Assembly (NCBI RefSeq): GCF_040958095.1
Contig: NC_091193.1
Span: 30,658,129 to 30,722,128 of the forward strand
Reading direction: 5' to 3'
From: Procambarus clarkii
Taxonomy: Eukaryota; Arthropoda; Malacostraca; Decapoda; Cambaridae
DNA: 64,000 bases
Of the stretch, positions 3,107-43,825 are shown piece after piece. The translations under genes were made by a program, and so were the position numbers. Below the pieces are notes generated by a model, which saw only the letters and a list, made by a program, of their open reading frames with translations, made no database searches and was not told where the DNA came from. Within the stretch, counting starts at the first letter, position 1. Every line of letters starts with the position of its first letter.

Positions 3107-3394
3107 TAACACTTAAGTGGTAACACTTATTTTCTGTTCACTCAAAACCCCTGCTCAACACTGCTACAGCTCAGTAGGACTCCTCACTGAGCTCCCGCGG
3201 GTACAACCTCAAATATTAAATGAGGATGAAACAACGAGATTAGGGATCATTAATTTAAAACTACTAATTTAACCTCATTAAGAACACTGCCACCACCTCC
3301 CCGGTCTAACATACCTGAATGTGTCTATCACTGATCCCCAGGAAGACAAGGTATCAGTAATCATCAACTCCCGGGCAATAGGAACTTCGGTAAT
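3107..3394. other. Non-coding spacer
   Basis: Unique-looking, mostly AT-rich sequence between two arrays. No reading frame or structural RNA was recognised. Confidence 0.5.
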
Positions 3395-6585: not shown

Positions 6586-6678
6586 ATCTTGGGAATTATT
6601 TTGTGTAATTTACTTTACTTATTTAGGTCCAAGGACAACTTAATATCCATTAAATGGAGGAGAAGATGGTGGTATCCA

Positions 6679-8044: not shown

Positions 8045-8856
8045 CTGCTCAACATTAATAACAAAAGGGACAGAGGTAACTAAACAATAAAAACCAATTT
8101 ATAACTTTATTTAATTTAAACACATATATTGAAATCAAATGAACATATAGCCTCTTATCCTAAGAGGCAAATGGATATCTACCGAGGACATGAATACTCA
8201 GGTGCACATTACCTTAAAACCTCAACCTGGCCAGATGTTGATGGCTGTCTTCAGCCTCTTTGATGCGGGACCGAGTTCCTACCCCCACACCACTCCCAGA
8301 ACACACTCCTCAAATTTTGTTTCACCAGCTTACCGGTGGAAGGAATGCTCCTCCCACAATCTAATACAACCCCAAGGCTCCACCCATTATTTTTGGCTAC
8401 AGCTAACCATTTAAGACTAGGCCTGAGGTCTGGCTCTCCAGGGCCAATAAGGACTAGCCACTTATCTCCCGCCAATCACCTTCCATGACATGCCTGAAGG
8501 TACATGAAAATTCTCGAAGATTGAGTCAGCTCTCCCCAGCTATTGGAAGAGAACAAAGACGCCTCTGTAGCGGACCACCCGAGCCTGGAGCACAATGTTT
8601 ACAGAAACTGATAATTTATGTTCAAACCTGTCTCCTCCAAGATAAAAGGTAGGGACATTTGACTCGCCTGGTTTGGGGGAGGAACCGGTGAGAGGGGAAG
8701 AGAGGGAACTGAGAGGTGGATGGAGAGGAGGGAGCATAGGCACCGAGAGGACCAAGCTAGCAAGACCACCCTCAGGTCAACCTCTTGGCCCTTGACAAAT
8801 GGGCGAAGAGGAGAGAAGGGGGAGGAAAGGAGGGAATCAGCCGTTACAGGAGGTGA
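8045..8856. other. Non-coding spacer between arrays
   Basis: Mixed-composition sequence with small open frames of 70-75 codons, overlapping on both strands and lacking recognisable domains. No SINE or LINE signature was seen. Confidence 0.45.
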
Positions 8857-9955
8857 CTGTGACGGGTACAGGCAGCACGGGGGGTGAGTGTGACGGGGAC
8901 AGGCAGGACGGGGGGTGAGTGTGACGGGGACAGGCAGGACGGGGGGTGAGTGTGACGGGGACAGGCAGGACGGGGGGTGAGTGTGACGGGGACAGGCAGG
9001 ACGGGGGGTGAGTGTGACGGGGACAGGCAGGACGGGGGTGACTGTGACGGGGACAGGCAGGACGGGGGGTGAGTGTGACGGGGACAGGCAGGACGGGGGG
9101 TGAGTGTGACGGGGACAGGCAGGACGGGGGGTGAGTGTGACGGGGACAGGCAGGACGGGGGGTGAGTGTGACGGGGACAGGCAGGACGGGGGTGACTGTG
9201 ACGGGGACAGGCAGGACGGGGGGTGAGTGTGACGGGGACAGGCAGGACGGGGGGTGAGTGTGACGGGGACAGGCAGGACGGGGGGTGAGTGAGACGGGGA
9301 CAGGCAGGACGGGGGGTGAGTGTGACGGGGACAGGCAGGACGGGGGTGACTGTGACGGGGACAGGCAGGACGGGGGGTGAGTGTGACGGGGACAGGCAGG
9401 ACGGGGGGTGAGTGTGACGGGGACAGGCAGGACGGGGGGTGAGTGTGACGGGGACAGGCAGGACGGGGGGTGACTGTGACGGAGACAGGCAGGACGGGGG
9501 GTGACTGTGACGGGGACAGGCAGGACGGGGGGTGAGTGTGACGGGGACAGGCAGGACGGGGGGTGACTGTGACGGGGACAAGCAGGACGGGGGGTGAGTG
9601 TGACGGGGACAGGCAGGACGGGGGGTGACTGACGGGGACAGGCAGGACGGGGGGTGAGTGTGACGGGGACAGGCAGGACGTGGGGTGACTGTGACGGGGA
9701 CAGGCAGGACGGGGGGTAAGTGTGACGGGGACAGGCAGGACGGGGGGTGAGTGTGACGGGGACAGGCAGGACGGGGGGTGACTGTGACGGGGACAGGCAG
9801 GACGGGGGGTGAGTGTGACGGGGACAGGCAGGACGGGGGGTGAGTGTGACGGGGACAGGCAGGACGGGGGGTGACTGTGACGGGGGGTGACTGTGACGGG
9901 GACAGGCAGGACGGGGGGTGACTGTGACGGGGACAGGCAGGACGGGGGGTCAGTG
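8857..9955 (+). repeat. 32 bp G-rich minisatellite
   Basis: The unit is GTGAGTGTGACGGGGACAGG plus CAGGACGGGGGG, with a GTGACTGTG variant spaced irregularly and occasional one-base G losses. It shares the core GTGTGACGGGGACAGGCAGG with the array at 1821-3106. It runs without a break into the next array at about 9950, where ACAGGCAGGACG is replaced by ACTAGCCAGGTGGAGCG. The 245-codon minus-strand open frame across it is low complexity. Confidence 0.95.
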
Positions 9956-12900
9956 TGACGGGACTAGCCAGGTGGAGCGGGCTGGAGGGTCAGTGTGACG
10001 GGACTAGCCAGGTGGAGCGGGCTGGGGGGGGGTCAGTGTGACGGGACTAGCCAGGTGGAGCGGGCTGGAGGGTCAGTGTGACGGGACTAGCCAGGTGGAG
10101 CGGGCTGGGGGGGGGGTCAGTGTGACGGGACTAGCCAGGTGGAGCGGGCTGGGGGGGTCAGTGTGACGGGACTAGCCAGGTGGAGCGGGCTGGGGGGGGG
10201 GTCAGTGTGACGGGACTAGCCAGGTGGAGGGTTGGGGGGGGGTCAGTGTGACGGGACTAGCCAGGTGGAGCGGGCTGGGGGGGGGGGTCAGTGTGACGGG
10301 ACTAGCCAGGTGGAGCGGGCTGGAGGGTCAGTGTGACGGGACAAGCCAGGTGGAGCGGGCTGGGGGGTCAGTGTGACGGGACTAGCCAGGTGGAGCGGGC
10401 TGGGGGGTCAGTGTGACGGGACTAGCCAGGTGGAGCGGGCTGGGGGGTCAGTGTGACGGGACTAGCCAGGTGGAGCGGGCTGGGGGGTCAGTGTGACGGG
10501 ACTAGCCAGGTGGAGCGGGCTGGGGGGGTCAGTGTGACGGGACTAGCCAGGTGGAGCGGGCTGGGGGGTCAGTGTGACGGGACTAGCCAGGTGGAGCGGG
10601 CTGGGGGGGGGGGTCAGTGTGACGGGACTAGCCAGGTGGAGCGGGCTGGGGGGGGGTCAGTGTGACGGGACTAGCCAGGTGGAGGGTTGGGGGGGGGGTC
10701 AGTGTGACGGGACTAGCCAGGTGGAGCGGGCTGGGGGGGGGTCAGTGTGACGGGACTAGCCAGGTGGAGGGTTGGGGGGGGGTCAGTGTGACGGGACTAG
10801 CCAGGTGGAGCGGGCTGGGGGGTCAGTGTGACGGGACTAGCCAGGTGGAGGGTTGGGGGGGGTCAGTGTGACGGGACTAGCCAGGTGGAGCGGGCTGGGG
10901 GGGGGGGGTCAGTGTGACGGGACTAGCCAGGTGGAGGGTTGGGGGGGGTCAGTGTGACGGGACTAGCCAGGTGGAGCGGGCTGGGGGGTCAGTGTGACGG
11001 GACTAGCCAGGTGGAGCGGGTTGGGGGGGGGGGGTCAGTGTGACGGGACTAGCCAGGTGGAGCGGGCTGGGGGGGGGGTCAGTGTGACGGGACTAGCCAG
11101 GTGGAGCGGGCTGGGGGGGGGGGGGGTCAGTGTGACGGGACTAGCCAGGTGGAGCGGGCTGGGGGGGGGGGGGTCAGTGTGACGGGACTAGCCAGGTGGA
11201 GGGTTGGGGGGGGGGTCAGTGTGACGGGACTAGCCAGGTGAGCGGGCTGGGGGGTCAGTGTGACGGGACTAGCCAGGTGGAGGGTTTGGGGGGGTCAGTG
11301 TGACGGGACTAGCCAGGTGGAGCGGGCTGGGGGGTCAGTGTGACGGGACTAGCCAGGTGGAGCGGGCTGGGGGGGGGGGTCAGTGTGACGGGACTAGCCA
11401 GGTGGAGCGGGCTGGGGGGGGTCAGTGTGACGGGACTAGCCAGGTGGAGCGGGCTGGGGGGTCAGTGTGACGGGACTAGCCAGGTGGAGCGGGCTGGGGG
11501 GGGGGGGTCAGTGTGACGGGACTAGCCAGGTGGAGCGGGCTGGGGGGTCAGTGTGACGGGACTAGCCAGGTGGAGCGGGCTGGGGGGGGTCAGTGTGACG
11601 GGACTAGCCAGGTGGAGCGGGCTGGGGGGTCAGTGTGACGGGACTAGCCAGGTGGAGCGGGCTGGGGGGTCAGTGTGACGGGACTAGCCAGGTGGAGCGG
11701 GCTGGGGGGTCAGTGTGACGGGACTAGCCAGGTGGAGCGGGCTGGGGGGGTCAGTGTGATGGGACTAGCCAGGTGGAGCGGGCTGGGGGGGGGGGTCAGT
11801 GTGATGGGACTAGCCAGGTGGAGCGGGCTGGGGGGGGGGTCAGTGTGACGGGACTAGCCAGGTGGAGCGGGCTGGGGGGGGGGTCAGTGTGACGGGACTA
11901 GCCAGGTGGAGCGGGCTGGGGGGGGGGGTCAGTGTGATGGGACTAGCCAGGTGGAGCGGGCTGGGGGGGGGGTCAGTGTGACGGGACTAGCCAGGTGGAG
12001 CGGGCTGGGGGGTCAGTGTGACGGGACTAGCCAGGTGGAGCGGGCTGGGGGGTCAGTGTGACGGGACTAGCCAGGTGGAGCGGGCTGGGGGGGTCAGTGT
12101 GACGGGACTAGCCAGGTGGAGCGGGCTGGGGGGTCAGTGTGACGGGACTAGCCAGGTGGAGCGGGCTGGGGGGTCAGTGTGATGGGACTAGCCAGGTGGA
12201 GCGGGCTGGGGGGGGGTCAGTGTGACGGGACTAGCCAGGTGGAGCGGGCTGGGGGGTCAGTGTGACGGGACTAGCCAGGTGGAGCGGGCTGGGGGGGGGG
12301 TCAGTGTGACGGGACTAGCCAGGTGGAGCGGGCTGGGGGGGGGTCAGTGTGACGGGACTAGCCAGGTGGAGCGGGCTGGGGGGGTCAGTGTGACGGGACT
12401 AGCCAGGTGGAGGGTTGGGGGGGGGTCAGTGTGACGGGACTAGCCAGGTGGAGGGGGCTGGGGGGGGTCAGTGTGACGGGACTAGCCAGGTGGAGCGGGC
12501 TGGGGGGGAGTCAGTGTGACGGGACTAGCCAGGTGGAGCGGGCTGGGGGGGGGTCAGTGTGACGGGACTAGCCAGGTGGAGCGGGCTGGGGGGGGGGTCA
12601 GTGTGACGGGACGAGCCAGGTGGAGCGGGCTGGGGGGGGGGTCAGTGTGACGGGACTAGCCAGGTCTAGCGGGCTGGGGGGGGTCAGTGTGACGGGACTA
12701 GCCAGGTGGAGCGGGCTGGGGGGGGGTCAGTGTGACGGGACTAGCCAGGTGGAGCGGGCTGGGGGGTCAGTGTGACGGGACTAGCCAGGTGGAGAGGGCT
12801 GGGGGGGGGGTCAGTGTGACGGGACTAGCCAGGTCTAGCGGGCTGGAGGGGGTCAGTGTGACGGGACTAGCCAGGTGGAGCGGGCTGGGGGGTCAGTGTG

Positions 12901-15832
12901 ACGGGGACTAGCCAGGTGGAGCGGGCTGGGGGGGGGGGTCAGTGTGACGGGACTAACCAGGTGGAGCGGGCTGGGGGGGGGGTCAGTGTGACGGGACTAG
13001 CCAGGTGGAGCGGGCTGGGGGGGGGCGTCAGTGTGACGGGACTAGCCCGGTGGAGCGGGCTGGGGGGGGGTCAGTGTGACGGGACTAGCCAGGTGGAGCG
13101 GGCTGGGGGGGGGGTCAGTGTGACGGGACTAGCCAGGTGGAGCGGGCTGGGGGGGTCAGTGTGACGGGACTAGCCAGGTGGAGCGGGTTGGGGGGGGGGG
13201 TCAGTGTGACGGGACTAGCCAGGTGGAGCGGGCTGGGGGGGGGTCAGTGTGACGGGACTAGCCAGGTGGAGGGTTGGGGGGGGGGGTCAGTGTGACGGGA
13301 CTAGCCAGGTGGAGCGGGCTGGGGGGTCAGTGTGACGGGACTAGCCAGGTGGAGGGTTGGGGGGGGTCAGTGTGACGGGACTAGCCAGGTGGAGCGGGCT
13401 GGGGGGGTCAGTGTGACGGGACTAGCCAGGTGGAGCGGGCTGGGGGGGGGGGGTCAGTGTGACGGGACTAGCCAGGTGGAGCGGGCTGGGGGGGGTCAGT
13501 GTGACGGGACTAGCCAGGTGGAGCGGGCTGGGGGGTCAGTGTGACGGGACTAGCCAGGTGGAGCGGGCTGGGGGGGGGTCAGTGTGACGGGACTAGCCAG
13601 GTGGAGCGGGCTGGGGGGTCAGTGTGACGGGACTAGCCAGGTGGAGCGGGCTGGGGGGGGTCAGTGTGACGGGACTAGCCAGGTGGAGCGGGCTGGGGGG
13701 TCAGTGTGACGGGACTAGCCAGGTGGAGCGGGCTGGGGGGTCAGTGTGACGGGACTAGCCAGGTGGAGCGGGCTGGGGGGTCAGTGTGACGGGACTAGCC
13801 AGGTGGAGCGGGCTGGGGGGGGGTCAGTGTGATGGGACTAGCCAGGTGGAGCGGGCTGGGGGGGGGGGTCAGTGTGATGGGACTAGCCAGGTGGAGCGGG
13901 CTGGGGGGGGGTCAGTGTGACGGGGACTAGCCAGGTGGAGCGGGCTGGGGGGGGGTCAGTGTGACGGGACTAGCCAGGTGGAGCGGGCTGGGGGGGGGGG
14001 GTCAGTGTGATGGGACTAGCCAGGTGGAGCGGGCTGGGGGGGGGGGTCAGTGTGACGGGACTAGCCAGGTGGAGCGGGCTGGGGGGGGGGTCAGTGTGAC
14101 GGGACTAGCCAGGTGGAGCGGGCTGGGGGGTCAGTGTGACGGGACTAGCCAGGTGGAGCGGGCTGGGGGGGGGGTCAGTGTGATGGGACTAGCCAGGTGG
14201 AGCGGGCTGGGGGGGGTCAGTGTGACGGGACTAGCCAGGTGGAGCGGGCTGGGGGGTCAGTGTGACGGGACTAGCCAGGTGGAGCGGGCTGGGGGGGTCA
14301 GTGTGACGGGACTAGCCAGGTGGAGCGGGCTGGGGGGTCAGTGTGACGGGACTAGCCAGGTGGAGCGGGCTGGGGGGTCAGTGTGACGGGACTAGCCAGG
14401 TGGAGCGGGCTGGGGGGTCAGTGTGATGGGACTAGCCAGGTGGAGCGGGCTGGGGGGGGGTCAGTGTGACGGGACTAGCCAGGTGGAGCGGGCTGGGGGG
14501 TCAGTGTGACGGGACTAGCCAGGTGGAGCGGGCTGGGGGGGGGGTCAGTGTGACGGGACTAGCCAGGTGGAGCGGGCTGGGGGGGGGGTCAGTGTGACGG
14601 GACTAGCCAGGTGGAGCGGGCTGGGGGGGTCAGTGTGACGGGACTAGCCAGGTGGAGGGTTGGGGGGGGGTCAGTGTGACGGGACTAGCCAGGTGGAGGG
14701 GGCTGGGGGGGGTCAGTGTGACGGGACTAGCCAGGTGGAGCGGGCTGGGGGGGAGTCAGTGTGACGGGACTAGCCAGGTGGAGCGGGCTGGGGGGGGTCA
14801 GTGTGACGGGACTAGCCAGGTGGAGCGGGCTGGGGGGGGGGTCAGTGTGACGGGACGAGCCAGGTGGAGCGGGCTGGGGGGGGGGTCAGTGTGACGGGAC
14901 TAGCCAGGTCTAGCGGGCTGGGGGGGGTCAGTGTGACGGGACTAGCCAGGTGGAGCGGGCTGGGGGGGTCAGTGTGACGGGACTAGCCAGGTGGAGCGGG
15001 CTGGGGGGTCAGTGTGACGGGACTAGCCAGGTGGAGAGGGCTGGGGGGGGGTCAGTGTGACGGGACTAGCCAGGTCTAGCGGGCTGGAGGGGGTCAGTGT
15101 GACGGGACTAGCCAGGTGGAGCGGGCTGGGGGGTCAGTGTGACGGGACTAGCCAGGTGGAGCGGGCTGGGGGGGGGGTCAGTGTGACGGGACTAACCAGG
15201 TGGAGCGGGCTGGGGGGGGGGTCAGTGTGACGGGACTAGCCAGGTGGAGCGGGCTGGGGGGGGGGCGTCAGTGTGACGGGACTAGCCCGGTGGAGCGGGC
15301 TGGGGGGGGGTCAGTGTGACGGGACTAGCCAGGTGGAGCGGGCTGGGGGGGGGGGTCAGTGTGACGGGACTAGCCAGGTGGAGCGGGCTGGGGGGGTCAG
15401 TGTGACGGGACTAGCCAGGTGGAGCGGGTTGGGGGGGGGGGTCAGTGTGACGGGACTAGCCAGGTGGAGCGGGCTGGGGGGGGGTCAGTGTGACGGGACT
15501 AGCCCGGTGGAGCGGGCTGGGGGGGGGGGGTCAGTGTGACGGGACTAGCCAGGTGGAGCGGGCTGGGGGGTCAGTGTGACGGGACTAGCCAGGTGGAGCG
15601 GGCTGGGGGGGGGTCAGTGTGACGGGACTAGCCAGGTGGAGCGGGCTGGGGGGGGGGGTCAGTGTGACGGGACTAGCCAGGTGGAGCGGGCTGGGGGGTC
15701 AGTGTGACGGGACTAGCCAGGTGGAGCGGGCTGGGGGGTCAGTGTGACGGGACTAGCCAGGTGGAGCGGGCTGGTGGGGGGGGTCAGTGTGACGGGACTA
15801 GCCAGGTGGAGCAGGCTGGGGGGGTCAGTGTG
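9951..15832 (+). repeat. 40-46 bp G-rich minisatellite, left half
   Basis: The unit is GTCAGTGTGACGGGACTAGC plus CAGGTGGAGCGGGCT followed by a run of about 6-14 G, so length varies mainly through the G run. That makes roughly 135 copies. Marker variants (GGTCTAGCGG, GACGAGCC, GACTAACC, AGCCCGG, GGAGGGTTGG) occur in the same order in two blocks about 2.24 kb apart. Many 60-140 codon open frames read MTGLARW or QCDGTSQVER patterns. They are translations of the unit, not proteins. Confidence 0.97.
15824..15832 (+). repeat. Left 9 bp flanking direct repeat (possible target duplication)
   Basis: GTCAGTGTG lies immediately before the element's first base and recurs immediately after its last base at 27996-28004. 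The same 9-mer begins every minisatellite unit, so it could also arise from the array's own phase. Confidence 0.6.
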
Positions 15833-15883
15833 AGTAGTAGGGAGTACAGTCCACAGACGATTTTTTTTTTGGCCAGAGGACCC

Positions 15884-15905
15884 CTGTGGACTGTACAGTC
15901 CACAG
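15884..15905. repeat. 22 bp perfect palindrome near the left terminus
   Basis: CTGTGGACTGT is followed directly by its reverse complement. It lies at the junction of a local duplication: AGTACAGTCCACAGACGA plus T-run occurs at about 15842 and its core again at 15894. The right end of the element lacks this extra roughly 50 bases. Confidence 0.85.
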
Positions 15906-16439
15906 ACGATTTTTTTTTTTCTGGGAAATATCGTGTGTAGCGCTTTAGAGTTTCTTGGTGAATTTGGGGAGTCACAGATTTGGGATTAAGGATTTCTTAC
16001 GAGTGAGATTTTAGAAGTATGGAATTCTTATGATGAAAATAATTTCCGAGACTTAGAAGTTTGTTAAGGTCTTATGGGAGAAATAGCAATCTGTCGCCTC
16101 ACCTGTGTTTACTTTAGACGTCAGCCAGACACGGCCTTCAGGTCACCTCGGTAATCGTATCTTATCTTCTCCATAATAATATCTGGACCATCCCTTTCTC
16201 TCTCTCTCTCTCTCTCTCCTCCTATTTCCTTACAGCTATTTTCAGAGTTTCAAATAATCATAGAAGTTTATTTATGTGTTTATGACCGAATTTGTAAAAG
16301 GACCATTTTCAGAGAATATTGTCTTAGATGTTTTGTTAAGGAAAACAGACAACTTATCCATAACATTTAGTTTTATATCCATTTACGGCTATTTCACCTG
16401 TAATCTGTGAAAATTGAACAGAGCCCAGTTATAGACAGA

Positions 16440-16925
16440 ATTTCGTCAGAGACCATTTATACCTAAAAATGAATAGAGACCACTTTGTGAGCAAAATTAG
16501 TCAGAGACAGTTTTTAGCTCATATTTCATCAGAGTCCAATTATCAACAGAAATTCGCCAGAGTCTACTTTGCTAGCAAAATTAGTCAGAGACAGTTTTAA
16601 GCTCAAATTTCATCAGAGTCCAATTATCAACAGAAATTCGCCAGAGTCTACTTTGAGAGCAAAATTAGTCAGAGACAGTTTTAAGCTCAAATTTCATCAG
16701 AGTCCAATTATCAACAGAAATTCGCCAGAGTCTACTTTGAGAGCAAAATTAGTCAGAGACAGTTTTAAGCTCAAATTTCATCAGAGTCCAATTATCAACA
16801 GAAATTCGCCAGAGTCTACTTTGAGAGCAAAATTAGTCAGTGACAGTTTTAAGCTCAAATTTCATCAGAGTCCAGTTCATGATCGAAATTAATCAGAGTC
16901 CAATTAAAGACCCAAATTTGACAGA
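16440..16925 (+). repeat. 84 bp tandem repeat inside left arm
   Basis: GCAAAATTAGTCAGAGACAG recurs at 16575, 16659, 16743 and 16827, exactly 84 apart, with decayed copies on both sides. The unit is 28 codons, which gives a repetitive 107-codon open frame. The mirrored region at about 26640-27450 has a different copy number and arrangement. Confidence 0.9.
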
Positions 16926-19900
16926 GACCACATTTTCGCTACTAGCAGCCCAATCCCCCTTAAATTTTAAATAGTCATATTTCAGTCATAGTAAAATAAG
17001 ATCAAGTCAGTTACTGAGCTCCAGCTCTCGTCCCCCCACCCTCTTCCACCCTCAAGTCTTTTGTAAATAACCCATCAATTTCCCCCAAAATTTTACCCTC
17101 TGTATTTCAGACATAGTAAATATGATGTAAACAATTATAAAACTCTAGCTCTTGTCCTCTGTCCAAGTTCACTCCTGTAAATTCATTACTATCAGTCCAA
17201 ATCCCCCTGAGATTTAAACACCCAACTACATTTTCAGACATAGTAAATAAAAACCAGTTCAGTTATCAAGTTTCAACTCTTGTGCCCCAGCTTAGTTCAT
17301 TTTGTACAAGTTCTTTATTTTTCTAACTAAATCACCCTGAGATTTAAGATCACCTTATTTCTAACGTAGTAAAATTAATCTGGACATTAGCCAAGCTCCA
17401 TTTCCTCGGCCTTAGATCATCAGACATAAATATATTCGATCAAGTCCGTCTCCAGCCTAACTCTTATCTGAGTACACACATAACCCAACCTGTGTAATTA
17501 TCTTTCACCCCCTCCCACCTTCCTCCATCTCATCTCACCTTACCCTTTCCCTCCCTTACCTTCTCATCCCCAACTTATCCAAACCTTCAATAATCGTACT
17601 GTATTTGCATATTTTCTCTATATTCACTGTGTTCTTCGTATTCTCATCCGTGTTCACTCCATGTTCTTCAAATGTTCACAGTCCCATTCAGTTCATATTT
17701 TCACAAGTATCTCCATTTTTTCTGTAATCTTTCTCTTAGTCTCATTATGTTCTCTACAAATTCTAGTCATATTTTCTACGTTTTCATGTTCATCACATGT
17801 TCTCTTTACAACTTTTATACTCAATATTCATGCTAACTTCCATATTTTGTGTTTCTTTGTCAATATTCATGTTCCTCTACAAGTTCATGTTCCTCACATG
17901 ATCACTTCGTTTTTCACCTTCACTTACATGTTTTCTACATTATTTGTCATATTCTCCATGTTCTTCACAAGTCCATTGTTCATTCTTTGTATTCCCTATT
18001 CTCCTTATCATGTTTTCATGTTCTCTGTAAGTTCATATTCCCAGCATGTTCACTGTATTCATCAACTTTTCTTACATGTGTTCTTTGCCATGTTCCCCAT
18101 ATGTTCTCTGGGTTTTTCCCCTTACATGTTATTTAACGTTCCTTAACTAAAAAATCTTTCGCCAATCAACTAAAAAACATAAGTCACTTTCGTCATTTCT
18201 CAACTAAACTTATTATCCAGTCAACTAAAAATAGTCAGAAATAGCCTCGTTCAACACTGTTCTTAACTAAAACAACCTTTCTCTTAGCTAAAAATTGTCA
18301 AAGGAAACTTCTTTCAGCACTTTCTTAACAGCCGCTATGTTTCATCAAGTAAGAAAAAATTGTCAAAGGAAACTTTCCAAAACTGTTCTTAACTAAAAAT
18401 CTTTCGCCAATCAACTAAAACATAGTCACTTTCGTCATTTCTCAACTAAACTTATTATCCAATCAACCAAAAACAGTCAGGATTAATCTCATTCAACACC
18501 GTTCTTAATTAAAACAACCTTTCTCTTAGCTAAAAAATTGTCAAAGAAATTTTATCATCACTGTTCTTAACTAAAATAACCTTTCTCTTAGCAAAAATAG
18601 TCAAGGGAAACGTTTCCAATACTGTTCATAACTAACTTTATCCATCGTCATTCAACTAAAAATAATAACTTTCATCATTTCCTAACTAAACTTATTCCAT
18701 AGTCAACAGAAAATAACCGTGTTCATCATATTTCATTATCATTTCTTGTCTAAAAAAATTATCCGCCAATCATCAGAAAAGTCATGTTCATCATGTTTTG
18801 TCTTTTTCCTTAACTAAAGTATTCATCAGTCAACTAAAAATAGTTACTTCATCATGTTTCCTTGTCGTTTCTTAACTGAAATATCACATCTCTCATCTGA
18901 AATAGTCATGTGTAGCCTCTTTCCAACACTGTTCTAACTAAAGTAACCTTTCACATCGCTAAAATAGTCATATTCATCATTGTTCCTAACTAAAATTATA
19001 TGACGTTAAGTAAGAAATATAGTCAAAGACACTCTTCGAGACATCAAGGACTTACTCAAAGACATCAAAGACGCATTCAAATACTACTCATGTTCTCAAA
19101 AGATATTCTCAAAGTCATCAAATTTATTCAAAGAGCTAACAAAAGTTATTCTCAGAGTCACCTTCGTTCTTCAGAGAAACTTTCCAAAACATCTTTGTTC
19201 ATCAAAGTTATTCTCGGAGTCATCAAAAGGTATTCTCTAACTCACTTTTGTTCATTAAAGTTAATTTCTATGTTATAAAAGTTATTCTCAGAGACATCTA
19301 AAGTTAATCTTGCTCATCAAAGTTGTTCTCAGAGTTAACAAAGGTAATCTCTAACTCACTCTCGTTCATCAAAGTTGTTTCAAAGACATAAAAGTTATTC
19401 TCAGAGACATCTAAAGTTAATCTTGCTCATCAAAGTTGTTCTCTAAGACATAAAAGTTATTCTCAGAGTCATCAAAAGTTGTTCTCTAAGACATCAAAGT
19501 TATTCTAAGAGCTATCAAAAGTTTTTCTCAGTCATGATATGTTATTCTCTAAGTAACCTTCCATTCATCAAAGACATTCTCTAAGCCCTCAAAGTTATTC
19601 TCTAAGACAACAAAGTCATTCCCAGAGTCATCAAAAAGTTATTCTCAGAGTCACCTTCGTTATTCAAAGAAGCCTTCTGAGACATCCTCGTTCAACAAAA
19701 CTGTCCTCAGAGCCATCAAAAAAGTTAAATACAGTCATCAAAGTTATTCTCTAAGTATCTTTTCGTTCATCAGAGAAGCTTTCTAAGACATCTTTGTTCA
19801 TCAAAGTTGTTCTCTAAGACATCAATGTTGTTTCTCTAAGGCATCAAAGATGTTCTCTAAATCATAAAAGTTAATCTCTAAGTCTCCTTCGTTCATTAGA

Positions 19901-20159
19901 GAAACTTTCCAATCCATCTTCGTTGATCAAAGTTATTCTCAGAGTCATCAAAGTGATCTCTAATTCATCTTCGTTCTCCAAAAAGTTGTTCTCTAAGACA
20001 CCTTCGTTCATCAAAGAAACTCTCCTTCTTCCATCATGTTATTCTTTAAGACATCTTCAGTCATAAAATTTTCTCTCCAAAATGTAACTAGTTCAGCTTT
20101 TCATACCAAACCTGCATTTCTGTTAAAATATATTTTCGCAGACACTTTACCCTAAAACT

Positions 20160-20860
20160 GTTCTCTGAACTATCCTAACTTAACTTACCTTACCTTAACT
20201 ATCTTACCTAACTTTACCTATCCTAACTTAACTTAACCTAACTTACCTATCTTACCTAACTTTACCTATCTTACCTAACTTAACCTGCATAACCTAACTT
20301 TACCTATCCTAACATAACTTACCTTACCTTACCTATCTTACCTAACTTTACCTATCTTACCTAACTTACCTACATTACCTAACTTAACTTAACCTGCTTA
20401 ACCTAACTTACCTACATTACCTAACTTAACCTGCATAACCTAGCCTGCTTAACTTAACTTAACTAACTTATCCTGCTTAACCTAACTTACCTACATTACC
20501 TAACTTAACCTGCTTAACCTAACCTATCCTAACTTAACTTAACCTAACTTACCTAACTTAACCTAACTTACCTACATTACCCAACTTAACCTGTTTAACC
20601 TAACTTTACCTATCCTAACTTAACTTACCTACATTACCTAACTTAACCTGCTTAACCTAACTTACATAACTTAACCTAACTTACCTTACCTATCTTACCT
20701 AACTTACATAATTTAACCTAACTTACCTTACCTTACCTTACCTAACTTAACCTGCTTAACCTAACTTACATAACTTAACCTAACTTAACTTACATAACTT
20801 ATCTTACCTATCCTAACCTAACCTAACTTGCTTTACCTAACTTAATCTTACATTCCCAAA
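20160..20860 (+). repeat. Degenerate CCTAACTTA / CCTAA-type tract, left arm
   Basis: About 700 bases built from ACCTAACTTA, CTTAACCTAAC and CTTACCTA words. CCTAA is the complement of the arthropod telomere word TTAGG, but the phase is broken by ACTTA and TACC words. This is therefore telomere-like low-complexity sequence, not a telomere. Confidence 0.8.
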
Positions 20861-21544
20861 CTGATGTATCCTAACTTATCTAGTCAAACCAGACATGATC
20901 TAACTTACATAAGTATTCCTGCTTGTCTTTTGTGTTTCGTCAATCATTGTCTCATATTCATTTACTCTTTTCATTAGTTAATTTCTCAAATGGTCACTTA
21001 TGCATTTCAAGTGCTATTTGTTAGAGATTGGATATTTAAGCATTTCAAAGGATTTTTGTTATATATGGGAACTTACTCATTTCAAGGGATAATTTCTCAA
21101 ATGGACGTTTTTGCATTTCAAGTGTTATTTGTTTAAGATTGGGTGTTTAATCATTTCAAAGGATTTTTGTTATATATGGGAATTTACTCGTTTCAAGGGC
21201 TAATTTCTCAAATGGTCATTTTTGCAGATCAAGGGTTATTTGTTAAAGTTCATCAAGTTGCCCATAAGTTGTATTTATTATGTTTGTTATCATTTATTCT
21301 TATTCCCCAACCCCTTAACCTAACCTCTTGTAATCTTAGTGTATTTGGTAGGTTCTATCATATGTTCTTATTCCCCAACCCTTTAACCTAACCTTTCAGA
21401 TGTAGTTTATTGTGTTTTTTGACGTATTTGTTGAATATATTATCCTTTTCCTAACCTTTTAGATGTAGTTTTGTTTCTCCTTTTTGTATATTTTTACCCA
21501 AACCCACCATCCCACTTAACCTTCTTTCCTTCTTTACTTTGATT

Positions 21545-21885
21545 CTCCTACTCCTTCTAACCCTCCTTTTCTATCTCTCTCCCTTATTCTCTCTCTTCCT
21601 CCCCCTCTCTCTCCCTCATTTGCTCAAATGCTCTCTTGTTTCTCAAATTCAAGTCTTAATGCTCCCATTCTCACACCCTCACTCTCATTCCCTTAGTTTT
21701 TCTTTTTTCTCAAATTCAAGTCATAGTGCTCCCATGCTCTTCCTCCCCCCTCTCTCTTACTCTTTTCTCCTCTTTTCATGCTCTCACTCACTTGTTCTCT
21801 TGTTTTTCTCAATTTCAAGTCTTAGTAGATCTGATTCTTTACTATTGTAATTTTTATTACTATGATAAAGAATGAACTTATATGT
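21545..21885 (+). other. Central loop of the 12 kb inverted repeat
   Basis: This is the only part without a mirror copy: pyrimidine-rich (CTCTCTCCCTC, TTCTCAAATTCAAGTCTTA twice), about 340 bases. A 103-codon open frame (21539-21850) is Leu/Ser/Phe-rich from the composition and carries no recognisable domain. Confidence 0.75.
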
Positions 21886-24800
21886 GAAAACAAAGTAAAA
21901 GAAGGAAAGAAGGTTAAGTGGGATGGTGGGTTTGGGTAAAAATATACAAAAAGGAGAAACAAAACTACATCTGAAAGGTTAGGAAAAGGATAATATATTC
22001 AACAAATACGTCAAAAAACACAATAAACTACATCTGAAAGGTTAGGTTAAAGGGGGGGGGGGGGGGGAAATAAGAACATATGATAGAACCTACTAAATAC
22101 AACTTATGAGCAACTTGATGAACTTTAACAAATAACCCTTGATCTGCAAAAATGACCATTTGAGAAAATAACCCTTGAAATGAGTAAATTCCCATATATA
22201 ACAAAAATCCTTTGAAATGGTTAAACACCAAATCTTAAACAAATAACACTTGAAATGCAAAAAACGTCCATTTGAGAAATTATCCCTTGAAATGAGTAAG
22301 TTCCCATATATAACAAAAATTCTTTGAAATGCTTAAATATCCAATCTCTAACAAATAGCACTTGAAATGCATAAGTGACCATTTGAGAAATTAACTAATG
22401 ATATGAGTAAATGAATATGAGACAATGATTGACGAAACACAAAAGACAAGAAGGAATACTTATGTAAGTTAGATCATGTCTGGTTGGACTAGATAAGTTA
22501 GGATACATCAGTTTGGGAATGTAAGATTAAGTTAGGTAAAGCAAGTTAGGTTAGGATAGGATAGGTAAGATAAGTTAAATAAGTTAGGTTAAGCAGGTTA
22601 AGTTAGGTAAAGTAAGGTAAGTTAGGTTAAATTAAGTAAGTTAGGTAAGGTAAGGTAAGTTAAGTTAAGCAGGTTAGGTTATGCAGGTTAAGTTAGGGTA
22701 GGTAAAGTTAGGTTAGGCAGGTTAAGTTAGGTAAATGTAGGTAAGTTAGGTAATGTAGGTAAGTTAGGTAAGATAGGTAAAGTTAGGTAAGATAGGTAAG
22801 GTAAGGTAAGTTATGTTAGGATAGGTAAAGTTAGGTTATGCAGGTTAAGTTAGGTAAGATAGGTAAAGTTAGGTAAGATAGGTAAGTTAGGTTAAGCAGG
22901 ATAAGTTAGGTTAGGTTAGGTAAGATAGGTAAGGTAAGATAGGTAAAGTTAGGTTAGGTTAGGTAAGATAGGTAAGGTAAGGTAAGATAGGTAAAGTTAG
23001 GTTATGCAGGTTAAGTTAGGTAAGTTAGGTAAGATAGGTAAGGTAAGGTAAGGTAAGATAGGTAAAGTTAGGTTATGCAGGTTAAGTTAGGTAAGTAACA
23101 TTGGGTGGAGAGGATAGGTTACGTAGGTTTGAACAGTGTAGTTCAGAGAGCAGTTTTAGGGTAAAGCGACTAAGGAAATATATTTTAACAAGTGCAGGTT
23201 TGGTATGAAAAGCTGAACTAGTTACATTTTGGAGAGAAAATTTTATGACTGAAGATGTCTTAAAGAATAACATGATGGAAGAAGGAGAGTTTCTTTGATG
23301 AACGAAGGTGTCTTAGAGAACAACTTTTTGGAGAACGAAGATGAATTAGAGATCACTTTGATGACTCTGAGAATAACTTTGATCAACGAAGATGGATTGG
23401 AAAGTTTCTCTAATGAACGAAGGAGACTTAGAGATTAACTTTTATGATTTAGAGAACATCTTTGATGCCTTAGAGAAACAACATTGATGTCTTAGAGAAC
23501 AACTTTGATGAACAAAGATGTCTTAGAAAGCTTCTCTGATGAACGAAAAGATACTTAGAGAATAACTTTGATGACTGTATTTAACTTTTTTGATGGCTCT
23601 GAGGACAGTTTTGTTGAACGAGGATGTCTCAGAAGGCTTCTTTGAATAACGAAGGTGACTCTGAGAATAACTTTTTGATGACTCTGGGAATGACTTTGTT
23701 GTCTTAGAGAATAACTTTGAGGGCTTAGAGAATGTCTTTGATGAATGGAAGGTTACTTAGAGAATAACATAACATGACTGAGAATAACTTTTATGTCTTA
23801 GAGAACAACTTTGATGAGCACGATTAACTTTAGATGTCTCTGAGAATAACTTTTATAACAGAAATTAACTTTAATGAACAAAAGTGAGTTACAGAATAAC
23901 TTTGATGACACTGTGAATAACTTTGATGACTTTGAGAACAAGTTTGATAGCTCTGAGAATAACTTTTATGTGTTTGAGAATAACTTTTTGTTAGCTCTTA
24001 GAATAACTTTGATGACTTTGAGAATGTCTTTTATGTCTTAGAGAAGAACATTGATGGCTTAGAGAGAATATCTTGATGAAAGATGATGTCTTGGATTAAC
24101 TTTGACGTCTCTTGGAATAACTTTGATGACTTTGAGAACAAGTTTGATAGCTCTGAGAATAACTTTTATGTGTTTGAGAATAACTTTTTGTTAGCTCTTA
24201 GAATAACTTTGATGACTTTGAGAATGTCTTTTATGTCTTAGAGAAGAACATTGATGGCTTAGAGAGAATATCTTTGATGAAAGATGATGTCTTGGATTAA
24301 CTTTGACGTCTCTTGGAATAACTTTGATGACTTTGAGAACAAGTTTGATAGCTCTGAGAAAGACTTTGTTGTCTTAGAGAATACCTTTGTTGTCTTAGAG
24401 AATAACTTTGAGGACTTAGAGAATTAATATGTTGAACGAAAGTGAGTTAGAGATTACCTTTGTTAACTCTGAGAATAACTTTGATGAACGAGAAAATACT
24501 TTTTGATGGCATCGAGAACAAGTTTGATAGCTCTGAGAATAACTTTTATGCTTCTGAGATTAACTTTAATGAACGAAGATGTCTTAGAAAGATTCTCTGA
24601 TGAACGAAAGGTTACTTAGAGAATAGCATTTTGATGACTGAGATTAACTTTTGATGACTCTGAGAATAACTTTTATGCCTCTGTGATTAACTTTAATGAA
24701 CGAAGATGTCTTAGAAAGTTTCTCTGATGAATGAAAGGCTACTTAGAGAATAGCATTTTGATGACTGAGATTAACTTTTTGATGACTCTGAGAATAACTT

Positions 24801-27800
24801 TGAGGATGCGAGTAAATTTTTAAGTGTTTGAGAGTGTCTTTTGATATCTCGAAGAGTGCCCTTGAAGTCTTAAAGGATGTCTTTGATGTCTCGAAGGATG
24901 TCTTAGAGTGTAACTTTGGTGTCTTTGAGTAAGTCCTTGATGTATTGAAGAGTGTCTTTGATTTCTCGAAGAGTAACTTTGGTGTCACGGAGAGCACCTT
25001 TGACTATTTTTCTTACTTAGCGACATATAATTTTAGTTACGAAAGTGTTGAAAAAGTTACATTTGACTCTTTTAGTTGAGGAAAGACAAGAAAAAAATAT
25101 GACGACAGTGACTATTTTAGTGCTCCACAAAGTATAAATGTCAGTTAAGAACGACGATGATAGATATCTTTGACTATATTTTCTTACTTGACGATGGATA
25201 AAGTTAGTTATGAACAGTGCTGAAAAGATTCCTTTGACAATTTTTAGCTAAGCGAAAGGTTGTTTTAGTTAAGAACGGTGTTGAATGAGATTAATCCTGA
25301 CTATTTTCAGATGAGAGAAGTGATATTTCAGTTAAGAAATGACAAGGAAACATGATGAAGTAACTATTTTTAGTTGACCGATGAATACTTTTAGTTGAGC
25401 AAAAGACAAAACATGATGAACATGACTTTTCTGATGATTGGTGGATAATTTTTAGATAAGAAATGACAATGAAACATGATGAAAACGGTTATTTTCTGTT
25501 GACTATGGATAAGTTTAGTTGAAAAATGACGAAAGTGACTATGTTTTAGTTGATTGGCGAAAGATTTTTAGTTAAGAAGTTACGAGAAAGGTTTGTCTTT
25601 GTAAATTTGGAACTGAATAAAGTGTAGATTTGTTTAAGAACGGGGTTGGTAGAACTATTAAGTTGACTACGAGAATTACTTTGACATAGTTTTGCAAATA
25701 AAAACTTGGTGACTAAAATTGTTGAGGAAACTGTAATGCAGTATAATATTATTTGACAAAGAACTAGTTAGTGAATGGAAGAAACAAATTGGTTTAAAGA
25801 AACAAAGAACATAAAAAATTGAGGTTAAGTAGGGGAATGAACACAGTGAACATACGGTGAACACAGAAAACATGTAAGAAAAAGTTGATGAATACAGTGA
25901 ACATGCAGGGAATATGAACTTATAGAGAATATGAAGACATGATAAGGAACATAGGGAATACAAAGAATGAACACTGAACATGTGAAGAACAAGCTAAGAA
26001 CATTGAGAACATGAATATTGAGTATAAAAGTTATACAGAGAACATATGATGCACATGCAAACATGACAAAGAACATAGTGAACATACGGGGAAAGCGGTA
26101 GAAAAAAATTGAACTGAGCATGCTGTGAACATTTGTAGAACATGGAATGAATGCAGAAAACATGGAAAAAATGTGAAGAATAAGCTAAGAACATTGAGAA
26201 CATGAATATTGGGTATAAAAGTTATACAGAGAACATATGATGCACATGAAAACATGACAAAGAACATAGTGAACATACGGGGAAAATGGTAGAAAACAGA
26301 AAAAATGAGAAAAACAGGTGAAAAAAAATTGAACTGAGCATGCTGTGAATATTTGTAGAACATGGAATGAACACAGAAAACATGGAAAAAATGTGAAGAA
26401 CACAGCTGAATATAGAGAAAATATGTAAATACAGGGGGACAAGAGCTGGAGCTCGGTAACTGACTTGATCTTATTTACTACGTCTGAAATACAGAGGGTA
26501 AAAATTTCAGGGGAATTGATGGGTTATTTACAAATATACGAGAGAGAACTAAGGTGGGGACGAGAGCTGGAGCTCAGTAACTGACTTGATCTTATTTACT
26601 ACGTCTGAAATATGACTGTTTAAAATTTCAGGGGGATTGGACTGCTAGTAGCGAAAATGTGGTCTCTGCCAAATTTGGGTCTTCAATTGGAACTCTGATG
26701 AATTTCGATCATGAACTGGACTCTGAATATTTGGCACAAAGTAGACTCTGGCGAATTTCTGTTGATAATTGGACTCTGATGAAATATGAGCTAAAAACTG
26801 TCTCTGACTAATTTTGCTCACAAAGTAGACTCTGACGAAAATTGGGTATAAAATGGACTCTGTCAAATTTTCGCAGATTACAGGACTCTGATGAATTTCG
26901 ATCAAGAACTGGACTCATGAATTTTGCTATTAAAGTAGACTGGCGAATTTGAGCATAAACTGGACTCTGACGAAAATTGGGTATAAAATGGACTCTGTCA
27001 AATTTTCACAGATTACAGGACACTGATGAAATTTCGATCAAGAACTGGACTCTGATGAATTTTGCTATTAAAGTAGACTCTGGCGAATTTGAGCATAAAC
27101 TGGACTCTGACGAAAATTGGGTATAAAATGGACTCTGTCAAATTTTCACAGATTACAGGACACTGATGAAATTTGCTCTCAAAGTAGACTCTGGCAAATT
27201 TCTGTTGATAATTGGACTCTGATGAAATATGAGCTTAAAACTGTCTCTGACTAATTTTGCTCTCAAAGTAGACTCTGGCGAATTTCTGTTGATAATTGGA
27301 CTCTGATGAAATTTGAGCTTAAAACTGTCTCTGACTAATTTTGCTAGCAAAGTAGACTCTGGCGAATTTCTGTTGATAATTGGACTCTGATGAAATATGA
27401 GCTAAAAACTGTCTCTGACTAATTTTGCTCACAAAGTGGTCTCTATTCATTTTTAGGTATAAATGGTCTCTGACGAAATTCTGTCTATAACTGGGCTCTG
27501 TTCAATTTTCACAGATTACAGGTGAAATAGCCGTAAATGGATATAAAACTAAATGTTATGGATAAGTTGTCTGTTTTCCTTAACAAAACATCTAAGACAA
27601 TATTCTCTGAAAATGGTCCTTTTACAAATTCGGTCATAAACACATAAATAAACTTCTATGATTATTTGAAACTCTGAAAATAGCTGTAAGGAAATAGGAG
27701 GAGAGAGAGAGGGATGGTCCAGATATTATTATGGAGAAGATAAGATACGATTACCGAGGTGACCTGAAGGCCGCGTCTGGCTGACGTCTAAAGTAAACAC

Positions 27801-27995
27801 AGGTGAGGCGACAGATTGCTATTTCTCCCATAAGACCTTAACAAACTTCTAAGTCTCGGAAATTATTTTCATCATAAGAAATCCTTACTTCTAAAATCTG
27901 TGACTGACAAAATTTACCTGAAAACCCTGGCTCACACGCGGGATATTTCCCAGAAAAAAAAAAAAAGTTACCTGTGGCGCTTACACCCTACTACT
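21886..27995 (-). repeat. Right arm of the 12 kb inverted repeat
   Basis: This is the reverse complement of the left arm with the same block order. It is about 400 bases longer and clearly diverged in copy number. A block of about 200 bp beginning TTTGAGAACAAGTTTGATAG is repeated at 23931, 24131 and 24332. A block of about 190 bp around 25990-26180 is also duplicated. The TTAGG-like tract is at about 22500-23100. A long G run (22050-22067) has no match in the left arm. Confidence 0.85.
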
Positions 27996-30900
27996 GTCAG
28001 TGTGACGGGACTAGCCAGGTGGAGCGGGCTGGGGGGGGGTCAGTGTGACGGGACTAGCCAGGTGGAGCGGGCTGGGGGGGTCAGTGTGATGGGACTAGCC
28101 AGGTGGAGCGGGCTGGGGGGTCAGTGTGACGGGACTAGCCAGGTGGAGCGGGCTGGGGGGGGGTCAGTGTGACGGGACTAGCCAGGTGGAGCGGGCTGGG
28201 GGGTCAGTGTGACGGGACTAGCCAGGTGGAGCGGGCTGGGGGGTCAGTGTGACGGGACTAGCCAGGTGGAGCGGGCTGGGGGGTCAGTGTGACGGGACTA
28301 GCCAGGTGGAGCGGGCTGGGGGGGGGGTCAGTGTGACGGGACTAGCCAGGTGGAGCGGGCTGGGGGGTCAGTGTGACGGGACTAGCCAGGTGGAGCGGGC
28401 TGGGGGGTCAGTGTGACGGGACTAGCCAGGTGGAGCGGGCTGGGGGGGTTAGTGTGACGGGACTAGCCAGGTGGAGCGGGTTGGGGGGGGGTCAGTGTGA
28501 CGGGACTAGCCAGGTGGAGCGGGCTGGGGGGTCAGTGTGACGGGACTAGCCAGGTGGAGCGGGCTGGGGGGTCAGTGTGACGGGACTAGCCAGGTGGAGC
28601 GGGCTGGGGGGGGGGGGGGGGGTCAGTGTGACGGGACTAGCCAGGTGGAGCGGGCTGGGGGGTCAGTGTGACGGGACTAGCCAGGTGGAGCGGGCTGGGG
28701 GGGGGTCAGTGTGACGGGACTAGCCAGGTGGAGCGGGCTGGAAGGGGGTCAGTGTGACGGGACTAGCCAGGTGGAGCGGGCTGGGGTGTCAATGTGACGG
28801 GACTAGCCAGGTGGAGCGGGCTGTGGGGTCAGTGTGACGGGACTAGCCAGGTGGAGCGGGCTGGGGGGTCAGTGTGACGGGACTAGCCAGGTGGAGCGGG
28901 CTGGGGGGGGGGGGGTCAGTGTGACGGGACTAGCCAGGTGGAGCGGGCTGGGGGGTCAGTGTGACGGGACTAGCCAGGTGGAGCGGGCTGGGGGGTCAGT
29001 GTGACGGGACTAGCCAGGTGGAGCGGGCTGGGGGGGGGGGTCAGTGTGACGGGACTAGCCAGGTGGAGCGGGCTGGGAGGGGGTCAGTGTGACGGGACTA
29101 GCCAGGTGGAGCGGGCTGGGAGGGGGTCAGTGTGACGGGACTAGCCAGGTGGAGCGGGCTGGGGGGGGTCAGTGTGACGGGACTAGCCAGGTGGAGCGGG
29201 CTGGGGGGGGGGTCAGTGTGACGGGACTAGCCAGGTGGAGCGGGCTGGGAGGGGGTCAGTGTGACGGGACTAGCCAGGTGGAGCGGGCTGGGGGGGGGGG
29301 GTCAGTGTGACGGGACTAGCCAGGTGGAGCGGGCTGGGAGGGGGTCAGTGTGACGGGACTAGCCAGGTGGAGCGGGCTGGGAGGGGGTCAGTGTGACGGG
29401 ACTAGCCAGGTGGAGCGGGCTGGAAGGGGGTCAGTGTGACGGGACTAGCCAGGTGGAGCGGGCTGGGGGGTCAGTGTGACGGGACTAGCCAGGTGGAGCG
29501 GGCTGGGGGGGTCAGTGTGACGGGACTAGCCAGGTGGAGCGGGCTGGGGGGGGTCAGTGTGACGGGACTAGCCAGGTGGAGCGGGCTGGGGGGTCAGTGT
29601 GACGGGACTAGCCAGGTGGAGCGGGCTGGGGGGGGTCAGTGTGACGGGACTAGCCAGGTGGAGCGGGCTGGGGGGTCAGTGTGACGGGACTAGCCAGGTG
29701 GAAGCGGGCTGGGGGGTCAGTGTGACGGGACTAGCCAGGTGGAGCGGGCTGGGGGGTCAGTGTGACGGGACTAGCCAGGTGGAGCGGGCTGGGGGGTCAG
29801 TGTGACGGGACTAGCCAGGTGGAGCGGGCTGGGGGGTCAGTGTGACGGGACTAGCCAGGTGGAGCGGGCTGGGGGGGGGGGGTCAGTGTTACGGGACTAG
29901 CCAGGTGGAGCGGGCTGGGGGTCAGTGTGACGGGACTAGCCAGGTGGAGCGGGCTGGGGGGTCAGTGTGACGGGACTAGCCAGGTGGAGCGGGCTGGGGG
30001 GTCAGTGTGACGGGACTAGCCAGGTGGAGCGGGCTGGGGGGTCAGTGTGACGGGACTAGCCAGGTGGAGCGGGCTGGGGGGTCAGTGTGACGGGACTAGC
30101 CAGGTGGAGCGGGCTGGGGGGTCAGTGTGACGGGACTAGCCAGGTGGAGCGGGCTGGGGGGTCAGTGTGACGGGACTAGCCAGGTGGAGCGGGCTGGGGG
30201 GTCAGTGTGACGGGACTAGCCAGGTGGAGCGGGCTGGGGGGGGGGGTCAGTGTTACGGGACTAGCCAGGTGGAGCGGGCTGGGGGGTCAGTGTGACGGGA
30301 CTAGCCAGGTGGAGCGGGCTGGGGGGGGGGTCAGTGTGACGGGACTAGCCAGGTGGAGCGGGCTGGGGGGGGGGGTCAGTGTGACGGGACTAGCCAGGGG
30401 AGCGGGCTGGGGGGTCAGTGTGACGGGACTAGCCAGGTGGAGGGGCTGGGGGGGGGGGTCAGTGTGACGGACTAGCCAGGTGGAGCGGCTGGGGGGTCAG
30501 TGTGATGGGACTAGCAGGTGGAGCGGGCTGGGGGGGGTCAGTGTGACGGGACTAGCCAGGTGGAGCGGGCTGGGGGGTCAGTGTGATGGGACTAGCCAGG
30601 TGGAGCGGGCTGGGGGGGGGTCAGTGTGACGGGACTAGCCAGGTGGAGCAGGCTGGGGGGTCAGTGTGACGGGACTAGCCAGGTGGAAGGGCTGGGGGGT
30701 CAGTGTGACAGGACTAGCCAGGTGGAGCGGGCTGGGGGTCAGTGTGACGGGACTAGCCAGGTGGAGCGGGCTGGGGGGGGGTTCAGTGTGACGGGACTAG
30801 CCAGGTGGAGCGGTTGGGGGGGGGTCAGTGTGACGGGACTAGCCAGGTGGAGCGGGCTGGGGGGGTCAGTGTGACGGGACTAGCCAGGTGGAGCGGGCTG

Positions 30901-31203
30901 GGGGGGGGGTCAGTGTGACGGGGACTAGCCAGGTGGAGCGGGCTGGGGGGGTCAGTGTGACGGGACTAGCCAGGTGGAGCGGGACTGGGGGGTCAGTGTG
31001 ACGGGACTAGCCAGGTGGAGCGGGCTGGGGGGTCAGTGTGACGGGACTAGCCCAGGTGGAGCGGGCTGGGGGGGTCAGTGTGACGGGACTAGCCAGGTGG
31101 AGCGGGCTGGGGGTCAGTAGTGTGACGGGAATAGCCAGGTGGAGCGGGCTGTGGGGTCAGTGTGACGGGACTAGCCAGGTGGAGCGGGCTGGGGGTCAGT
31201 GTG
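27996..31203 (+). repeat. 40-46 bp G-rich minisatellite, right half
   Basis: Same unit and same orientation as 9951-15832, about 75 copies, beginning with GTCAGTGTG directly after the inverted-repeat element. From about 30370 to the gap many units carry one-base losses or gains in the otherwise constant part (for example AGCCAGGGGAGC, ACTAGCAGG, GACGGACTAG). Confidence 0.97.
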
Positions 31204-31703
31204 NNNNNNNNNNNNNNNNNNNNNNNNNNNNNNNNNNNNNNNNNNNNNNNNNNNNNNNNNNNNNNNNNNNNNNNNNNNNNNNNNNNNNNNNNNNNNNNNN
31301 NNNNNNNNNNNNNNNNNNNNNNNNNNNNNNNNNNNNNNNNNNNNNNNNNNNNNNNNNNNNNNNNNNNNNNNNNNNNNNNNNNNNNNNNNNNNNNNNNNNN
31401 NNNNNNNNNNNNNNNNNNNNNNNNNNNNNNNNNNNNNNNNNNNNNNNNNNNNNNNNNNNNNNNNNNNNNNNNNNNNNNNNNNNNNNNNNNNNNNNNNNNN
31501 NNNNNNNNNNNNNNNNNNNNNNNNNNNNNNNNNNNNNNNNNNNNNNNNNNNNNNNNNNNNNNNNNNNNNNNNNNNNNNNNNNNNNNNNNNNNNNNNNNNN
31601 NNNNNNNNNNNNNNNNNNNNNNNNNNNNNNNNNNNNNNNNNNNNNNNNNNNNNNNNNNNNNNNNNNNNNNNNNNNNNNNNNNNNNNNNNNNNNNNNNNNN
31701 NNN
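31204..31703. other. Assembly gap, 500 N
   Basis: Exactly 500 Ns, a conventional placeholder length, placed inside the G-rich array. The true size of the array is therefore unknown. Open frames running through the Ns are meaningless. Confidence 0.99.
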
Positions 31704-43800: not shown

Positions 43801-43825
43801 ACATTCTAGTAGAAATATGTAAGAC

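Follow-up and report, generated by a model that had tools for sequence, protein, structure and literature searches.

What kind of element is the 12 kb inverted repeat at positions 15833-27995 of C44:30658129-30722128, in the 4.03 Gb genome of Procambarus clarkii, and is it related to the Foldback (FB) elements of Drosophila? The window, by which the whole 64,000-nucleotide stretch analysed (forward strand) is meant, was described in an original prediction, made from its letters alone, as carrying a Foldback-like element inserted into a minisatellite with a 9 bp flanking duplication. The foldback form of the element stood up to analysis. The kinship with Drosophila Foldback did not, given the 6 bp duplications of its relatives, its Polinton termini and its coding relatives, which carry a protein-primed polymerase (pPolB) and an rve integrase with a chromodomain. 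The element is a real mobile element, most likely a gene-less passenger of Polintons, self-copying transposons that resemble viruses, and not a Drosophila Foldback relative, and very probably belongs to a non-autonomous, foldback-shaped Polinton/Maverick family. The termini of the element and the 6 bp footprint of its relatives are held in common with gene-bearing Polintons of the same genome.

Termini and gene-bearing relatives

The predicted 10 bp perfect termini were found, with AGTAGTAGGG starting both ends: the left terminus, which is the (AGT)2 Polinton end motif, lies at 15833..15842 on the forward strand, and the right terminus lies at 27986..27995 and is read on the reverse strand from 27995. 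The element has (AGT)2 at its 5' end and (ACT)2 at its 3' end. In the literature, vertebrate Mavericks/Polintons are marked by termini of the form (AGT)2//(ACT)2 together with 6 bp target-site duplications (PMC8097293; this and the other papers are cited from excerpts of their text), and terminal inverted repeats (TIRs) are a further likeness to those elements.

The prediction called for a search for an autonomous relative between similar ends, and gene-bearing relatives of this layout were found in the form of Polintons. Searching with PF03175 (pPolB) gave 95 matches in the crayfish genome (1428 candidates, 91 scored) and 0 in 14 control genomes. The Polinton at C30:29603847-29630440 (left and right termini) has element-type ends that enclose a pPolB match, which falls within a 1306-codon open frame; a separate Pfam scan of the 561 residues preceding the match gave no polymerase match. 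The last 8 kb of C30 contain an rve integrase with a chromodomain (PF00665, 36.7 bits; PF00385, 27.3 bits; both over the cut-off) and a 185-residue open reading frame (ORF) with a sub-threshold C48 protease match. No Pfam matches were obtained for the C30 ORFs of 150, 301 and 136 residues, and sub-threshold ones only for the ORF of 396 residues. The terminal repeats of C30 are about 0.9 kb long. Over 534 bp of their inner part they agree at 97.6%, and some stretches of them align with foldback ends (e.g., C94a at 88.6% over 394 columns). In the window element, the segments that align with the C30 repeat are 16006..16226 in the left arm (forward strand) and 27701..27986 in the right arm (reverse strand).

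In four other copies, termini were expected at about 3.5 kb upstream of pPolB and were found in each case, three of them near-identical. With the C30 terminal repeat as the query, the 40 scored places formed 16 facing pairs, at least 8 of which bracket an inward-pointing pPolB 3.46-3.58 kb from one end among the matches listed. Three of these eight lie within 0.23 Mb on C16, have nearly equal lengths and may be duplicates. The length between repeat matches is 13.0-13.6 kb in six of the eight, and 18.8 and 26.4 kb in the others. Ten Polinton-type TIR pairs were inspected, and all nine that were readable at both ends have an exact 6 bp duplication; five of the nine are pPolB-bracketed. C30, counted in addition to these, has the 6 bp duplication CACCAC. 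Terminal repeats of the element's kind are common to gene-bearing Polintons of the same genome. In a comparison of 60 bp ends, the foldback ends of C54 and C44b had their nearest match in a Polinton-type end and not in another foldback, the partner of C44b being C38, a Polinton-type element not shown to carry pPolB. Most other foldback ends were not closer to Polinton-type ends; this includes both window ends, which were closer to foldbacks.

The window element differs from these Polintons in having no recognisable genes and in its 5-6 kb tandem-repeat arms around a loop of about 340 bp, whereas C30, the one Polinton read further, has its short terminal repeat around genes. Thirteen ORFs of at least 80 aa were found in the window element, the longest of 161 aa. 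Eight of the 13 were scanned against Pfam (E 0.01) and gave no pPolB or rve integrase match, the pair of proteins that an autonomous Polinton encodes; the sole match among the eight was a weak DUF3738 on a repeat-derived ORF. With 13 short ORFs, and no convincing match in the eight scanned, a coding role for the element was rejected.

One of the 20 usable foldback-type pairs treated below, the element at C49:31337996-31351179, has Polinton-type ends, the 6 bp duplication CAAAAT and a different middle with several ORFs, two of which have BIR (IAP) domains; it is a possible cargo-bearing relative.

Copies in the genome and target-site duplications

Other copies with different flanks and duplications of their own were present, as had been anticipated, with duplications of 6 bp and not 9 bp. 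The first 300 bp of the element were used as a query and the best 40 of 3065 first-look candidates were scored, 24 of them being in facing pairs; the last 350 bp likewise gave 24 in facing pairs among the best 40 of 3110. A query of 821 bp around the loop gave 39 other scored places at 93-97% identity (best 40 of 1730 candidates, window included). A 24-base end pattern had 374 + 356 = 730 exact matches genome-wide and the reversed control pattern 0 + 0. Pairing was done for the first 100 of the 730 places, from which 13 in one C2 tandem array were excluded. The remaining 87 gave 30 facing pairs of <30 kb, a mixture of foldbacks and Polintons, of which 26 span 9.2-14.8 kb and 29 have the same end subtype at both ends. 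The window copy and the other copies begin with AGTAGTAGGG, two carrying one substitution at one end. The excluded places belong to C2:23500572-23517701, a satellite-like array containing the element's end, in which thirteen same-orientation end motifs are spaced mostly at 1646 bp.

The largest pairs, C19 42214459-42235876 and C2 24628204-24652517, were considered as autonomous copies and rejected. In 10 kb read from each, one had retroelement-like ORFs (by eye) and the other had repeats and one ORF without identity; both look like nested insertions because foldback blocks lie beside those contents. The C2 pair is separated by 7 kb from a pPolB-bearing Polinton of 13.3 kb (C2:24607787-24621124). 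A third candidate, C394, was rejected since its two flanks are reverse-complementary. C394:155150-179626 and C49:36456285-36467186 both have facing ends and reverse-complement flanks, and are large palindromes or hairpin mis-assemblies.

Flanks were compared at 22 foldback-type pairs and the C30 Polinton, with an exact 6 bp match in 20 of 23. C394 (6 bp, in an AT array) and C49:36456285 (none) were then removed from the counts because of their reverse-complement flanks, leaving 20 pairs. An exact 6 bp target duplication was present in 18 of these 20 usable foldback-type pairs, or in 17 of 19 independent ones, since C33 and C19 share flanks. Short flank matches arise more easily in tandem arrays, and many of the sites lie in arrays; at the sites outside arrays (C47, C12, C49, C2 and C72) the 6 bp duplication was found in 5 of 5.

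At the window copy, the 9 bp flanking repeat of the prediction was found in place. GTCAGTGTG lies directly outside each end, at 15824..15832 (forward strand), the end of an array half starting at 9944, and at 27996..28004 (forward strand), the start of the array half 27996-31203. The repeat is inside a tandem array whose consensus unit contains GTCAGTGTG, and the G-rich array keeps the same orientation on either side of the element, as had been observed. A literal 9 bp duplication was rejected as the family footprint because the family norm is 6 bp. The window copy, which has no 6 bp duplication, is accordingly filed by its ends and its family and not by its own footprint.

Preference for tandem arrays

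One copy of the duplication was removed and a tandem array was sought across the junction, some flanks being <100 bp. Such an array was found at 15 of 20 foldback-type sites, or 14 of the 19 that are independent, and at 6 of 10 Polinton-type sites, compared with 9 of 40 random 200 bp stretches from 25 contigs (3 of the 40 containing N). For 14/19 versus 9/40 the one-sided Fisher p was 0.00024. Since the window copy had been selected for its position in an array, it was also excluded, and the comparison was then 13/18 versus 9/40 (p = 0.00046). The Polinton-type sites alone gave p = 0.03. The chromodomain of the integrase may have a role in this preference.

Shared architecture and arm similarity

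The inverted repeat has the predicted layout, with a left arm of 5.71 kb (15833..21544, forward strand), a loop of 343 bp between the arms (21545..21887, no strand) and a right arm of 6.11 kb (21888..27995, reverse strand). From outside to inside, the left arm consists of a unique end block, an 84/28 bp minisatellite (16475..16902), a ~21 bp minisatellite of the CATCAAAGTTGTTCTC type (19195..19882), a TAACTTACC-type array (20176..20850) and a 37/111 bp minisatellite (20979..21248), all on the forward strand. The right arm contains this series reverse-complemented, with a different end subtype: the match of the 84/28 bp block is at 26828..27444, the ~21 bp block at 23425..24801, the GTTAGG/TAGGTTAAG-type counterpart of the TAACTTACC block at 22545..23096 and a 37/112 bp minisatellite at 22123..22412, all on the reverse strand. 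Near the left terminus, a terminal module (15846..15894, forward strand) has a perfect 11 bp stem, ACAGTCCACAG/CTGTGGACTGT, and its first part recurs from 15895. Judged by eye, similar modules occur one to three times at the ends of the other copies inspected.

The block series occurs in window order in 8 of 11 fully read relatives (C47, C12, C94b, C54, C33, C19, C94a and C78) and mostly on both arms of these eight; the right arm of C94b is without the innermost blocks, and C47 is without the loop and part of the inner block. The loop is present in 7 of the 11. Fully read elements with these ends (n = 12) are 6.0-13.2 kb long. Arm identity is 98.6-99.7% in 7 of the 12 (C47, C12, C54, C33, C19, C94a and C78), counted over aligned columns without gap columns, of which C12 has 5268 and C94a 2098. 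It is 94.6% in C94b, 88.5% in the window copy (4693 aligned columns; 2777 gap columns) and lower in C20, C44b and C49, which have asymmetric middles and whose arms were split at the midpoint.

In a tree of the b2b3 block, for which the length filter retained 11 of 22 possible rows, both arms fork together in 4 of 5 copies having both rows. In the inner-block tree, the arms of C54, C78 and C94a pair, the two arms of the window copy lie apart, and the four arms from C33 and C19 form a group, the two right arms being apart. The outer 250 bp were too conserved for resolving most arms. From the arm identities and the b2b3 forks, the arms seem to have been copied from one another more recently than the copies from each other. 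Protein-primed replication with the displaced strand folding back, or gene conversion between arms, would explain such copying.

The window copy as a mosaic

The window copy is a mosaic with two ends of different subtypes, which are 86% alike over the first 100 bp compared with 97-100% in the 19 other usable pairs. The mosaic could have formed by strand exchange before integration or by recombination between copies afterwards. For this copy only, a hybrid of two foldbacks that lay in minisatellites of one kind and recombined, the 9 bp repeat then being array phase, is possible and falls somewhat short of an even chance. The unlike ends and the missing 6 bp duplication agree with such a hybrid. 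So do the 12 chimeric copies of Galileo with unlike TIRs, which are described as lacking matching duplications in the excerpts of PMC3573991 and which favour recombination after integration. Against it, two pPolB-bracketed Polintons, C30 and C71, combine perfect 6 bp duplications with outer ends that are not alike, which means that such ends can form before integration. It is also unlikely that array phase would by chance produce an overlap of exactly 9 bp in a unit of about 40 bp, unless target sites within the unit are preferred.

Alternative explanations

Several observations weigh against a mobile, foldback-shaped Polinton family. No movement was observed; trans-mobilisation and snap-back copying are inferred. 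Among the Polinton pieces read, which exclude some 14 kb in C30 and the central parts of the other Polintons, matches cover no more than portions of the arms' outer ~0.6 kb, and no source of the inner blocks and loop was found. The window copy is flanked by its 9 bp repeat and C58 has no duplication, and 8 of the 20 pairs were read at their ends only (C19b and C2 partly inside). The block order is partial in C20 and C44b and different in C49. Arms are not always grouped by copy: those of C94b belong to a fork that the b2b3 tree leaves unresolved, and the outer 250 bp of C94b_R and C20_L are identical.

Among the explanations of the family as a whole, it is improbable that the foldbacks are Polintons that lost their genes in place and were remodelled by local inverted duplication and array growth. 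Polintons and foldbacks do have ends in common and some end subtypes intermix. The same block series and loop nevertheless recur in relatives at differently flanked sites (C33/C19 excepted) that have their own duplications, and the loop region alone matches 39 other places. The recurrence of series and loop at separate sites indicates that the foldback form itself seems to have spread.

A true member of the Foldback/Mutator lineage, like the Drosophila elements and with a MULE-type transposase creating its 9 bp duplications, is a very improbable alternative. It would fit the ordered tandem-repeat blocks in the arms and the 9 bp repeat at the window copy, but 18 of 20 pairs have 6 bp, and the termini and coding relatives are those of Polintons (no search was aimed at FB sequence or a MULE transposase).

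An assembly or hairpin-read artefact, for which the prediction had named identical arms as the sign and which the palindromic look of C394 and C49:36456285-36467186 brings to mind, is the least probable explanation, because the window arms differ by about 11%, their flanks are not reverse complements of one another and direct 6 bp duplications are present in 18 of 20 pairs.

Proposed mechanism

For a non-autonomous Polinton family, Polinton proteins would act in trans on the element ends. The protein-primed polymerase would copy the element starting from its AGTAGT ends, and the rve/chromodomain integrase, with a preference for tandem-repeat arrays, would insert it at a stagger of 6 bp. A displaced single strand may fold back so that one arm is copied from the other (snap-back synthesis), which would account for the origin of the long arms as well as for their continued likeness. 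Snap-back defective genomes of viruses offer a comparison for this step.

A more far-reaching and rather doubtful possibility, taken with all its steps, is that the foldback is the satellite genome of an endogenous virus-like transposon. Such a gene-less replicon would use the protein-primed replication of the Polinton and perhaps its capsids, and tandem repeats would pad it to just under helper length (6.0-13.2 kb versus mostly 13.0-13.6 kb). Snap-back synthesis would remake one arm from the other in each cycle, leaving the two arms at about 99% identity in 7 of 12 copies despite the differences between copies, and the chromodomain-bearing integrase would steer both partners into minisatellites.

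Comparison with known systems

Long inverted arms, ordered short tandem repeats and a short middle are features of the FB plan as given in the original prediction. The two were compared by description; the crayfish family differs in its 6 bp duplications (9 bp in FB, from the same source) and its Polinton ends. In the excerpts of PMC4079207 and PMC3573991, foldback elements are for the most part linked to the Mutator superfamily, Galileo being among the exceptions. Galileo of Drosophila (P superfamily; PMC3573991) likewise includes foldback-like copies, chimeric copies and long TIRs that are repetitive internally, and differs in its P-element transposase (no search was aimed at one in the crayfish), its 7 bp duplications, which are not those of the 6 bp crayfish family, and its longest TIRs of about 1.26 kb. 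Tetris of Drosophila virilis (PMC4079207) is likewise a non-autonomous foldback element with internal tandem repeats. It differs in its duplications of 8-10 bp; the excerpts give Mutator as its authors' suggestion and report that no autonomous partner was found.

One sentence in PMC3573991, from references cited there, mentions inverted-repeat expansion for Polintons too. A foldback-shaped Polinton is not described in the excerpts of PMC8097293, PMC4028283, PMC6431247, PMC10454600, PMC3573991 and PMC4079207. Neither a foldback-shaped Polinton nor non-autonomous Polinton/Maverick forms (miniature inverted-repeat transposable elements, MITEs) were found in the literature searched, which was that outside subscription journals and repeat databases.

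Surroundings of the element

Long minisatellites are numerous around the element (window 1832-15833, 27996-31203 and 43823-45181), and a gap of 500 N lies at 31204-31703. A U3 snoRNA was found at 41249-41447 on the reverse strand (114 bits, model matched over its full length). A DIRS/Ngaro-like retroelement (family name by eye) lies at 46080-50090 on the reverse strand, with tyrosine recombinase (PF00589) and reverse transcriptase (PF00078) ORFs.

Implications

In this genome, Foldback architecture is found on virus-like Polinton ends. The abundance of passengers beside helpers with long open frames would provide a natural assay of whether animal Polintons replicate and integrate in trans. A link between the chromodomain integrase and minisatellites may lie behind the preference for tandem arrays, which makes the choice of target testable.

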